64,000 nt of DNA from Actinopolymorpha singaporensis (GTDB lineage Bacteria > Actinomycetota > Actinomycetes > Propionibacteriales > Actinopolymorphaceae): the NCBI RefSeq assembly GCF_900104745.1, contig NZ_LT629732.1, forward strand, positions 4,885,981 to 4,949,980, in the 5' to 3' direction. Positions within the stretch are counted from its first letter, which is position 1. Each line of letters begins with the position of its first letter. The notes beneath the pieces were generated by a model. That model had not been told where the DNA came from. It did not search any database and saw only the letters and a list, made by a program, of their open reading frames with translations. Both the position numbers and the translations under genes were made by a program. Below, piece after piece: positions 5,734-40,974 of this stretch.

Positions 5734-5895
5734 CCCGGCCCTGCCCTTCGCACTCGACCAGGCCACGAGCTTGAGCAGGCCGAGGTGGGAAGACCTACGG
5801 GGCCCAGGTCGCCGACGGACACCAGCCAGGAGGCCAGAGGTGGGACATGGGATGTCTGTCACGTACTCGGGCGCCCTCGGAGCCGCCGAAAGCCG

Positions 5896-37556: not shown

Positions 37557-37574
37557 TTGTGTCACCTTCCAAGT

Positions 37575-37583
37575 CATCTGATG
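37575..37583. promoter_or_regulatory. Candidate operator of the FadR-type regulator before the UxaA-like gene
   Basis: CATCTGATG is a palindrome with one central base, inside AAGTCATCTGATGTTTCAA. CATCnGATG cores occur in operators of FadR-subgroup regulators. It lies in the gap divergent to the GntR gene (start 37748) and just before the preferred start of the UxaA-like gene. Only one half-site extends well, so the call is weak. Confidence 0.35.
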
Positions 37584-37747
37584 TTTCAATGTCGCGAATC
37601 GTACTCGCTCCGCAGCGGCGGCGGACCCTCGTAGGGCGTGTTCAGGGGGCGCGGTCAGGCGGGTGCCATAGGGTTGGCCCCGCAGTCGACCCACCAGCCT
37701 GTCCGATGGTGGTCACCTTGGCGGGCACCCTGGGAGGCACGGCGGAC

Positions 37748-38689
37748 ATGACCGACCGGAAACCACGACCGAGGAAGCCGGCCCGCATCACGACCGGCCG
37801 CGACGGGCGCGGACCAGGCGGCGACGGCGCCGCGGGAGACGCTCGGGTTGCTCGGAGCGCCCGGAGCGCTCGGGGTGTTCGGGGCGCCGGACACGCGGGG
37901 GGCGCTGAGGGCGCGCTCGCCGGCGTCAGCCGCTCCGGACTCGCCGACCAGTTGGCCGAACGCCTGCTGGACGAGATCGTCGCCGGTGTCTACCCACCCG
38001 ACAGCCGGCTCCCACCCGAGCCCGTCCTCGCCGAACGCGCCGGCGTCAGCCGGCTGACGTTGCGCGAGGCGATCAAGGACCTCCGTCAGCGGGGCGTGCT
38101 GCGGGTCCAGCAGGGGCGCGGGACGTTCGTGAACCAGCCCGACACCTGGGCGCCGTTCGACAGCACGGTGCTCAACGCGCGGGCGCTGCTGGAATCGGGG
38201 TACGAGCTCGCGCACGAGCTCACCGAGCTGCGCCGGATCGTCGAGCGCGGGATCGCCGAGCTCGCCGCGGTCCGGCGTACCGACGAGGATCTGGACCGGA
38301 TGGAGGCCGCCGTGGCCACCATGCGCGAGGCCTGGGCGGCGCAGGACCTCGACACCTTCAGCTCCGCCGACGTCGACTTCCACGACGCGCTGCTGCGGGC
38401 GGCCGGGAACGCGTTCGCGCTGACGTTGTTCCACTCCGTCGACGGCGCGCTGCGCTCGGTACGCCGGCGCACGGTCGAGGAGAACGCCGAACTCGCCGAA
38501 CGCGCGATCGACTACCACGCCAAGATCATGAGCGCCGTACGCCGGAAGGCTCGGCGGTCGGCCGGGGCGCTGATGGACGAGCACCTGCAGGAGACGGAGG
38601 ACTTCACCGCCGCGCTGGCGGCCGCGTCCTCCGCCGCCGCCGCGGCCCGGGCCGAGGAGGACGACGCCCGCACCCGCCGCCGCGCCTGA
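37748..38689 (+). CDS. GntR-family regulator, FadR/FCD subgroup
   Basis: A 313-residue repressor-type regulator. Residues about 60-130 form the winged helix (RLPPEPVLAERAGVSRLTLR, VLRVQQGRGTFVNQP); residues about 150-290 form the FCD domain with FHDALLRAAGN and HAKIMSAVRR. The first 55 residues are an Arg/Gly/Ala-rich extension with near-repeats (ARSARSARGVRGAG) not usual for the family; a later start is possible. It is divergent from the UxaA-like and LarA-like genes, so it probably controls them in response to a sugar acid. A long perfect hairpin begins 35 bp after its stop. Confidence 0.88.
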   Translation: MTDRKPRPRKPARITTGRDGRGPGGDGAAGDARVARSARSARGVRGAGHAGGAEGALAGVSRSGLADQLAERLLDEIVAGVYPPDSRLPPEPVLAERAGVSRLTLREAIKDLRQRGVLRVQQGRGTFVNQPDTWAPFDSTVLNARALLESGYELAHELTELRRIVERGIAELAAVRRTDEDLDRMEAAVATMREAWAAQDLDTFSSADVDFHDALLRAAGNAFALTLFHSVDGALRSVRRRTVEENAELAERAIDYHAKIMSAVRRKARRSAGALMDEHLQETEDFTAALAAASSAAAAARAEEDDARTRRRA

Positions 38690-38723
38690 GTCTCGTCCTG
38701 CCGCGGACCATTCAGTGCAATCC

Positions 38724-38779
38724 AGCGAAGTGTGGAGACTTACGGGGGTCATAGCCCCCGTAAGTCTCCACACTTCGCT
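38724..38779. repeat. Perfect 25-bp inverted repeat (hairpin) built from two copies of a local repeat
   Basis: Each arm is 25 nt (AGCGAAGTGTGGAGACTTAC then GGGGG, exact complement on the other side) around the 6-nt loop TCATAG. It could terminate both the GntR gene (+) and the AbiEi/DUF559 pseudogene (-). A third copy with 23 of 24 matches occurs at 39806-39829, upstream of that gene, which makes this more than an ordinary terminator. Confidence 0.9.
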
Positions 38780-39734
38780 CGGGAAGGACCGCAGAACGCG
38801 CACGGAGCGGGAGTTCCGGGCCAGCCGCGTCGACGGAGCACCCGAGCCACCTGAGCTGCGACCTCGCATGGTTGTGCCAACGTCTCCGCCCAGCCGTACC
38901 TCAATGTCCAGTGCCGTCCTCGGCGGCACCGTTGTCCCGTCGGCGATCCCGAAACGCCCCCTCCTCCACGTGCCCGAGCCGTCCGTCGAGCTCCACCAGG
39001 AGGAGGTACTTCTCGTAGCACACGTCGGACCACTGTCGGCCCGCAGCAGTTCGGCGACTGGTCTGCCGAACGCTCCGCGGCAGACGGTGCGGGCGCTCCA
39101 CGGACCGCAGGTAGGCCACTTCCAGTGGTGACTGGGCACCCTCCTCGACGTCTGAGAGCAGGGCCCGCAACTGAGCGCGCCATCGAAGGGTCGGGCGACC
39201 TGCGAGCGCGGCGAGAAGTCGCGCCGGCGTCGTACGCCGGCGTTGGCAGGCGCAGGTCACCAGACACACGACGTCGGCAAGGCGATCGGCGCCGGATGCC
39301 AGGTCGAGTATCGTCTCCTCCACACGAGTCCGCGGAGGCATCCGCGAGGGATGTCGGAGCGCGAGGATCCGCCGGGAACGATGCACACGCAGCCCGCGCT
39401 GCTGGATCACCCGACGACCGCTCGGGACCGTGACGTCTATCGGTTCGTCCGGATCGAGGGCGTCCAGAAGCCCCCAGAGTTCAGCTGCCGAGCGATGACT
39501 CAGTACTGCTTCGAGTCCGGCAAAGAGCACGGCCGCCCATTGCTGGGTCGACCGCTGCGTCGGACCGTCGTAGGTGACGTACACCCGTGGGTAACGCCGA
39601 AACCAACGGCCCGAAAGCACACGTGCTCGCACGCGCTCTCGGGTCAGGCCCGCAGCGATCACCTGGTCCAGGAGTACCGCACCGGCCTGAGCTTCGACCG
39701 TTGCCCGCAAAGACGGGGGAAGCGGGGTGGGCAT
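38749..39734 (-). pseudogene. AbiEi/DUF559-type nuclease-like gene, frameshifted near its 3' end
   Basis: From ATG 39734 the frame reads an AbiEi-antitoxin-like N-terminal helix-turn-helix (AAGLTRERVRARVLSGRWFR, LSHRSAAELWGLLD) followed by a C-terminal DUF559/PD-(D/E)XK-like segment (LLVELDGRLGHVEEG, FRDRRRDN). It stops at 38901 after EDGTGH. The expected continuation is in another frame: at about 38910, DG would be followed by WTLRYGWAETLAQPCEVAAQ up to RRRGW, so two extra bases (AC) break the gene. Family members are common orphan genes in actinobacteria with unknown role. The gene lies wholly inside inverted copies of the 38724 repeat. Confidence 0.75.
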
Positions 39735-39805
39735 GGCCGAGAGTCCCACGAACCGGCCTGCGCCAGCCCTGCCGCGGATGCCGGCTGTGGATGAAAAGGC
39801 CGAGC

Positions 39806-39829
39806 AGCCAAGTGTGGAGACTTACGGGG
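39806..39829 (+). repeat. Third copy of the AAGTGTGGAGACTTACGGGG repeat, upstream of the AbiEi/DUF559 gene
   Basis: Matches the left arm of the 38724 hairpin at 23 of 24 positions (AGCC instead of AGCG at the start). Relative to the copy at 38756-38779 it is inverted. It has no complementary arm of its own. The following CTAT continues the match with the flank of the other copy once a single-base gap is allowed. Confidence 0.85.
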
Positions 39830-39842
39830 CTATCGACAAACT

Positions 39843-39882: not shown

Positions 39883-40974
39883 TCAGCAGATTTCGAGGGT
39901 GTCAAGGTCGGGGGTCGCAGGGCCCGAGTGCGACGTCTCACCGGAGTACCAGAACGCCGTGGAGGCGATGTCGTCCTGCAGCGGGAGGTACCGCCCGCCC
40001 GAACGCCAGCCCAGCGCCTGGACCGTCACCTTCAGGTCGGAGGCGAACCGGATCGGGTCGAGGACGTGCCAGCGGTACATACCGAACCGCTGCTGGCTCT
40101 GGTACAGCCCGTCCGGCGCGATGATCTGGTGCAGGCCGAGGAACGGTGTCGAGAACGCCGTGTAGCCCTGCCCCGGCACGTCGAAGTTCCACGCCCCGCC
40201 GAAGTAGTCCTCGGTGCCGGTGCCGCAGATCGTCGGGAACTCCTCGTCCCCGTCCAGGAAGAACTTCAGCTCGCCCTCACCCCACCAGCCGACGCTGTTG
40301 ACGCCCCAGGCGAGATACGTGCCGACGTAGTGGCCCGCACCGGTCACGCCGTCCAGGATGGTGTGCACGTCCTTGCTGGGCAGCGGGTTGCTCCGCCGCC
40401 ACTGGGAGTGGAAGTACGCCACCTGGTCGCCCTGTGCGCCGAGTTCGGTGAGCGTGTAGTCCACCTGGTAGTAGACGATCACGTCCTCGTCGGCGAGGTT
40501 CTCCAGGGTGACCCGCGCGTTGTTCAGGAACGGCATCGTCCAGTACGAGTTGAAGCCGCCGTTGGGGTTGACCGCCACCGGCATCGAACTCAGCTGGGCG
40601 AACTTCCCCCACCCCTGGCCGAAGAAGTCCCCCACCGGCACCTCGACCGCCGGGCGAGTGTCGTCGTCCCAGTAGAAGCGCAGCAGCAGGCGGCGCCAGT
40701 TGGACACGTGCGTGGTGAGCCAGATGTGCTGGATCGCACCGGGGCCGTCGATCTCTGCGAGGGACGCCGTCTCCCCCGCCCCGATCCGGATCGAGGGCGA
40801 GACCTTCCAGCCCAGGCCGAGGTCGCGGGCCGCCCTGGCACCCGTACCTTCGGTCGCAGCGCCGCCGCGCCCCTTCTCACCGGTGGGGTTCTCCGCACTG
40901 ATCGACCGGGTGACCGCACCGGACAGGTGCGCCAGATCGCCGAGGCCACTCACGAGACCCGAATTACCGCTCAC
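39883..40974 (-). CDS. GH172 (DUF2961) family glycoside hydrolase
   Basis: GH172 enzymes act on alpha-D-fructofuranosides or D-arabinofuranosides; the family was long known as DUF2961. The 363-residue product has the family landmarks GPGAIQHIWLTTH near residue 75, LLLRFYWDDDTRPAVEVPVG, DFFGQGWGKFAQLSS, NGGFNSYWTMPF near residue 140, and GTGTEDYFGGAWNFDVPG near residue 265 with conserved acidic residues. There is no signal peptide, so it appears cytosolic. GTG 40974 is the start with a weak AAAGG. The YceI operon upstream ends at a strong terminator, so this gene has its own promoter in the 190-bp gap. Confidence 0.88.
   Translation of the reverse strand: MSGNSGLVSGLGDLAHLSGAVTRSISAENPTGEKGRGGAATEGTGARAARDLGLGWKVSPSIRIGAGETASLAEIDGPGAIQHIWLTTHVSNWRRLLLRFYWDDDTRPAVEVPVGDFFGQGWGKFAQLSSMPVAVNPNGGFNSYWTMPFLNNARVTLENLADEDVIVYYQVDYTLTELGAQGDQVAYFHSQWRRSNPLPSKDVHTILDGVTGAGHYVGTYLAWGVNSVGWWGEGELKFFLDGDEEFPTICGTGTEDYFGGAWNFDVPGQGYTAFSTPFLGLHQIIAPDGLYQSQQRFGMYRWHVLDPIRFASDLKVTVQALGWRSGGRYLPLQDDIASTAFWYSGETSHSGPATPDLDTLEIC

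Follow-up and report, generated by a model that had tools for sequence, protein, structure and literature searches.

A Probable REP-Like System in Actinobacteria: A Single-Gene AbiEi–Vsr-Type Nuclease and Its Short Cognate Palindromes

The Nuclease Locus of the Window

The stretch of Actinopolymorpha singaporensis DNA analysed here (64,000 nucleotides, hereafter the window) carries, between the genes for a GntR/FCD regulator and a DUF2961 protein, a single open reading frame for an AbiEi–Vsr/DUF559-type nuclease with palindromic repeats at both of its ends (Table 1). These two genes are its neighbours in the window, and no AbiEii nucleotidyltransferase toxin gene is adjacent to it there. An alternative start codon of the frame is the ATG at 39734. 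The homologues of this protein are about 50 residues longer and intact copies are held by relatives, while the missing C-terminal part (HWTLRYGWAE...GDLRGL, which in homologues reads YWTLRYGWAE...GDLR) is found in another frame, with its stop codon within the hairpin. The window gene is therefore either a frameshifted member of its family or affected by an assembly error at that point.

Table 1. Features at and around the nuclease site, in window coordinates.
Feature	Position	Strand	Remarks
GntR/FCD regulator	37559..38689	+	left neighbour of the nuclease site
Full palindrome (hairpin)	38724..38779	.	3′ side of the nuclease gene; arms 38724–38748 and 38755–38779, 25 nt each, complementarity 100%; 6-nt loop
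Rest of the C-terminal coding sequence, other frame	38749..38910	-	translated by eye, upper limit approximate; terminates in the hairpin
AbiEi–Vsr/DUF559-type nuclease ORF, as found (282 aa)	38901..39749	-	early end through a frameshift near the C-terminus
Half palindrome, single arm reaching the centre	39806..39833	.	5′ side of the gene
DUF2961 protein	39883..40974	-	right neighbour, convergent with the GntR gene

The window has three occurrences of a 20-mer, at 38728–38747 (+), 38756–38775 (−) and 39810–39829 (+), which bears out the sequence-only reading of three near-identical copies, two in the same direction and one inverted; the positions given there, 38724 and 39806, are the starts of the longer arms and not of the 20-mer itself. 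The facing copies, reported to match at 23 of 24 positions, indeed measure 96% identity over 24 nt (38756–38779 against 39806–39829), and the third copy does build the perfect hairpin described for it. One hundred shuffles of the window held no match to the 20-mer, even with up to 3 mismatches, which rules out a chance origin of the repeat. Folded as single-stranded DNA, positions 38718–38785 reach z = −13.8, a stability equalled in 0 of 200 shuffles, and no RNA family of Rfam was matched between 37500 and 41000 at E ≤ 1. In the place of the half copy of the window, two related loci (L047 and L048) have a complete palindrome. A solitary degenerate arm (GTGGGAAGACCTACGGGG), the second arm of which is not visible, is also present at window positions 5785–5802.

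An AbiEi Half Fused to a Vsr-Type Nuclease Half

The window gene belongs to an actinobacterial protein family in which an AbiEi-type DNA-binding half is fused to a Vsr/DUF559-type nuclease half. The initial guess of an AbiEi/DUF559-like gene was confirmed on intact homologues; in the window ORF itself, neither domain scores at E ≤ 1. Among five intact homologues searched at E ≤ 0.1, AbiEi_4 was matched in four (two above the cut-off) and DUF559 (PF04480) in two (one above the cut-off), and the AbiEi models of PADLOC were matched by three of three homologues. NCBIfam returned no name for the five homologues, and a profile made from 40 diverse proteins brought no gain as a search query. No match to PHROGs was obtained among three homologues, which gives no sign of a phage origin, possible as such an origin is.

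The structure predicted for the A. alba protein (pLDDT 91.0, pTM 0.84) resembles two known folds in succession. Residues 1–198 align with AbiEi (6y8q; Z 12.1, rmsd 4.2, 185 residues aligned), the antitoxin of a type IV toxin-antitoxin system, and with Rv2827c (1zel; Z 8.8). In comparison with the AbiEi antitoxin, the family adds the fused nuclease half and, in the window, has no AbiEii gene alongside. Residues 202–306 align with I-Bth0305I (3r3p; Z 10.4, rmsd 3.1, 93 residues aligned), 3hrl (Z 10.5) and the Vsr endonuclease (1cw0; Z 8.6), the Foldseek E-values for this half being weak (0.022 for 3hrl and 0.11 for 3r3p). The C-terminal 100 residues of the family share both the fold and the conserved residues of Vsr and I-Bth0305I, and the nuclease-like residues E, D, E-x-D, H and D are conserved in the family; this Vsr-like fold with its acidic residues and histidine is presumably of the type named ‘EDxHD’. 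Unlike Vsr and I-Bth0305I, the family nuclease is joined to an AbiEi half, intergenic in location and flanked by cognate palindromes.

Cognate Palindromes on Both Sides of the Gene

Relatives of the protein were detected in 45 of 57 genomes. A first set of loci consisted of the best 92 of 122 matches minus two fragments of G015; one of these 90 (L125) had no tblastn hit, leaving 89 loci with the window locus included. When repeats shared by the two flanks were scored at a threshold of at least 18, regardless of palindromic form, a match was obtained at 60 of the 89 loci, mostly as an imperfect palindrome of about 50 bp, compared with 0/89 distal pairs and 1/267 cross-locus pairs. A second set, the best 80 of 499 named loci with nine left out for short flanks, was drawn from Jiangella, Phytoactinopolyspora, Planosporangium, Dactylosporangium and others, and gave a match at 40 of 71 loci (distal control 0/67, cross control 3/213). 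Three of its loci (L205, L206 and L208) are identical to L049, L076 and L077 of Actinopolymorpha alba DSM 45243 (genome G005) and all pass, so that the independent second-set figure is 37/68. At L230 the 196-nt match comes from a duplication and not from a palindrome; a match about as long also occurs in the cross control. No flank match at the same threshold was obtained at 29 of the 89 and 31 of the 71 loci. In most of the loci examined, the gene is flanked by cognate palindromes on both sides.

Palindromes themselves, at a threshold of at least 13, were present in 83/162 flanks upstream of the gene and 75/162 downstream of it, while the distal controls gave 3/155 and 3/155 and shuffling gave 0/162; these counts refer to 162 of 169 units, those with short flanks being left out and the three repeated loci included. 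Among the 75 downstream palindromes the median length is 49 nt (10th–90th percentile 42–60), and 44 of them overlap the stop codon. The reading frame of L047, for example, terminates as ...SLGDLRVS-stop across the arm and loop of its palindrome, and at L232 the stop codon is furnished by the palindrome tip ATGATCAT. The 83 upstream palindromes end at a median distance of 68 nt from the start codon.

The sequence of the palindrome varies from locus to locus. Direct orientation of the flanking copies is clearly better at L049, L060, L063, L070 and L074, and inverted orientation at L061 and L130. The proposal of a small unit with terminal inverted repeats thus holds in that cognate palindromes bound the gene, but not in their orientation, which is direct in some loci and inverted in others. 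The insertion junctions are not sharp in alignments with relatives, and the search for exact junctions by alignment gave no gain because the intergenic DNA is too diverged to define a target or a target duplication.

Palindromes Dispersed Away from the Gene

In the 6.40-Mb genome of the window, the 20-mer with up to 2 mismatches has 19 hits (reversed control, 0), which correspond to nine full palindromes and the half copy. Eight of the nine full copies lie away from the nuclease gene; by a rough gene call, all eight are intergenic, four of them between convergent genes. A covariance model was built from 25 palindromes with 22 pairs. In their stems, 20 cells carry changes on both sides, where the shuffles average 7.5 (0/500), as expected of a stem preserved by compensatory change; two of the five stem measures were not above shuffles (pairs with two-sided change, 78/500; additional pair types, 404/500). 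With 150 candidates per genome and both strands reported, so that the number of places is about half that of matches, the model gave 30, 35, 35, 58 and 83 matches in five of the six genomes of the genus, 11 in G007, which belongs to another genus, and 0 in G002 and G006. At E ≤ 1e-5, five genomes (G000, G001, G004, G005 and G007) have a match to the gene itself and three (G002, G003 and G006) have none; G002 and G006 hence lack gene and palindromes alike, and in G003 the palindromes occur without the gene.

A search pattern for palindromes of 42–62 bp with ATGATCAT tips, applied to ten genomes of Jiangella and Phytoactinopolyspora, recovered 81, 39, 10, 12, 44, 50, 132, 99, 129 and 30 copies, including those beside nuclease genes; the reversed control gave 0 in all ten, and G007 and G034 also gave 0. 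The suggestion that the repeat is dispersed with this gene family is upheld by dispersed copies together with cognate flanks in several genomes. For a closer link between repeat and gene the outcome is divided: nearly all full copies in the window genome stand away from the gene, and the link is made through the cognate flanks.

Palindrome Types and Nuclease Types

In J. anatolica, all 44 palindrome copies, four of which flank genes, were sorted by eye according to their inner stem into groups of 26, 13 and 5, and each of three close nuclease genes has one of these stem types in its flanks. The cognate stem is present on both sides of L232 and L262 and only as the downstream half at L244; a fourth nuclease gene, 33% identical, was not placed. 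At about 3960–4200 of L244, an apparent insertion sequence (by eye) splits the centre of the downstream palindrome, and palindrome centres may be insertion targets. In J. asiatica, where stem types were counted by eye on the 31 copies listed out of 50, one of two genes carries the type of 7/31 copies, and the second has a right arm of the common type (23/31) and a somewhat different left arm. One listed copy has an orphan stem type (L358); its derivation from the gene site of L224, L225, L234 and L235 was rejected, since the match is confined to the palindrome and does not include the flanks.

Palindrome copies and gene matches number 44 versus 4 in J. anatolica, 50 versus 2 in J. asiatica, 12 versus 7 in J. 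rhizosphaerae and 10 versus 4 in J. aurantiaca. Among 108 loci, the similarity of palindromes at different sites rises from 0.15 at a protein identity below 45% to 0.37 above 80% (14 pairs). Palindromes are more alike where the proteins are closer, with a correlation that is weak overall (Spearman 0.13) and was reached in 0/500 permutations, which ignore relatedness.

Orientation, Loss and Divergence at Shared Sites

At the window site, the gene lies between two palindromes in G001, G004 and G005, inverted relative to its orientation in G000. G003 has a single hairpin and no gene, G002 (a 24-nt gap) and G006 have neither gene nor palindrome, and in G007 the flanks are apart. Relatives that possess the gene thus have the repeats adjoining it, and gene-less sites are found among relatives with one repeat or none, both of which the sequence-only reading had put forward as points to check. 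Across 54 locus pairs with both flanks in common, the gene has the same orientation in 36 and the opposite one in 18, and both orientations occur in 11 of 25 site clusters.

Conservation at fourfold sites is lower for the gene than for the neighbour that aligns best in 52 of 54 pairs (28/28 in an earlier subset), the values for G000 versus G004 being 46% for the gene and 82% for the neighbour; a few of the flanking ORFs in these neighbour comparisons are probably wrong-frame shadows, e.g., L217/L243. Weak codon bias may lie behind part of the higher fourfold divergence of the gene. Pairs in the same orientation show the excess as well, and opposite orientation is therefore a weaker proof of simple inversion; alleles may have been replaced independently at shared sites.

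The solo palindromes have a history of their own. When contiguous matches alone were aligned, four of ten J. anatolica places had at least one of five congeners with the flanks and without the palindrome. In Actinopolymorpha, some palindrome places are common to relatives and others are absent or decayed. At L365 of J. muralis (the place of L354), a longer, different palindrome (GAAGTTGATCTTGGA...TCCAAGATCAACTTC) is located where J. anatolica has its own.

Comparison with RAYT/REP and Proposed Mechanism

The gene family and its repeats probably constitute a REP-like system, in which a single-gene AbiEi–Vsr nuclease serves a population of short palindromes, and the window locus is likely to be one decayed copy of it. 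In the published work on RAYT/REP (PMC2817692, PMC3733652), the gene is located between two REPs, co-evolves with them, retains a fixed site and evolves faster than its neighbours, and REP abundance is tied to the cognate gene. The present family shares with RAYT/REP a single gene between two cognate palindromes at the majority of loci in both sets, extragenic dispersal of the palindromes in many copies, co-evolution of gene and palindrome, and a gene that keeps its site and evolves faster than its neighbours. It differs in the enzyme, RAYT being a Y1 HUH transposase (PF01797) and the family protein an AbiEi-plus-Vsr-type nuclease, and in the palindromes, which are about 50 bp in length with flanking copies either direct or inverted. 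The GTAG at the palindrome foot that marks the GTAG class of REP was not seen by eye in the copies inspected.

PF01797 gave 0 hits at E ≤ 0.001 in six of the eight family genomes (G000, G001, G003, G004, G006 and G007). With the RAYT/REP signature largely reproduced, an unrelated protein and no PF01797 in these six, the family works like RAYT/REP and is not a member of it. A RAYT as the mover in the window genome was ruled out by the lack of a PF01797 hit there. Several Y1 (IS200/IS605-type) transposases are encoded in the congeners G002 and G005, and none was found in the other six. Against the REP-like reading stand G003, with palindromes and without the gene at E ≤ 1e-5, the loci that lack a flank match, and the small palindrome numbers of J. 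rhizosphaerae and J. aurantiaca relative to their gene matches.

AbiEi is reported to recognise a pair of 23-bp inverted repeats with a 3-bp spacer (PMC7319586). Two such repeats and the 3 bp between them amount to 49 bp, the median length of the palindromes, from which we infer that each arm is bound by the N-terminal half. By analogy, the AbiEi-like half would recognise the palindrome as two half-sites, and this paired binding would bring two Vsr-type nuclease domains onto one palindrome. Cutting at the palindrome, followed by copying or mis-repair, could then seed palindromes at further intergenic positions, and a segment with a palindrome at each end might invert, or be lost with a single palindrome left behind. 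Whether this amounts to a second, independently evolved REP machinery in Actinobacteria, with nucleases that read and cut palindromes of about 50 bp and seed more than 100 of them per genome, we judge to be evenly poised, and the same balance applies to that reading taken as a whole, with gene flipping and loss and with each nuclease lineage founding its own palindrome family.

Other explanations account for parts of these data. Were the palindromes AbiEi-type operators for regulation of their own gene, with dispersal left to other recombinases and insertion sequences, the upstream copy would be suitably placed before the start codon, and for AbiEi and Rv2827c binding to paired 23-bp inverted repeats ahead of the gene is reported (PMC7319586). 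This is nevertheless unlikely given the second copy downstream, so often over the stop codon, and the many copies away from the gene, intergenic throughout in the window genome. Less likely again is an autonomous transposon, i.e., a palindrome–gene–palindrome unit that hops like an insertion sequence and leaves solo palindromes as remnants. The repeats do form the boundaries of the unit, the unit, solo and empty states all occur at the window site, and related genes are present at many different Jiangella sites; however, palindromes can far exceed genes (J. anatolica and J. asiatica, but much less so J. rhizosphaerae and J. aurantiaca), the flanking copies are not consistently inverted, and genes with non-matching flanks reach at most 85% identity, which gives no sign of a recent hop.

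A homing element, the nuclease of which cuts alleles without it and is copied in by repair with the palindromes as targets, seems improbable to a still greater degree. The match of the nuclease half to the catalytic domain of I-Bth0305I and the deeply diverged alleles at the same site in both orientations speak in its favour. On the other hand, the window gene lies in the space between convergent genes, outside any conserved gene or intron; a homing element should split its target and not stand between two full copies of it; and alleles at one site carry different palindromes (L104, L109).

Under the preferred REP-like reading, the partnership of enzyme and palindrome would be new, its layout having a precedent in RAYT/REP. 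Judged by their listings, no open PMC papers on DUF559, AbiEi, RAYT, REP in Actinobacteria or REP with homing endonucleases describe it, a scope that leaves most subscription papers and bioRxiv outside, and none of those naming DUF559 describes such palindromes. The dispersal of REPs has until now been tied to HUH tyrosine transposases. If the reading is true, nature would have run the experiment a second time, with an unrelated nuclease of matching genomic signature, which would separate what a palindrome population needs, namely a resident enzyme that reads it, from the needs of RAYT chemistry. Many actinobacterial proteins of AbiEi/DUF559 type that are so far unexplained would also gain a role, and for each of them its own flanks would predict the DNA target, a prediction testable at the bench.

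Further palindromes were noted in the congeners. In some places they are clustered by two or three (G004:C1:3169470-3169788, L034; G001:C14:124784-124894) and resemble mosaic REP arrays. A second palindromic repeat, around ATTCTTCCGCGGAAGAAT, is recurrent in the intergenic DNA of these relatives, at L187 (G004), L180 (G003) and L191 (G001), place of L014.
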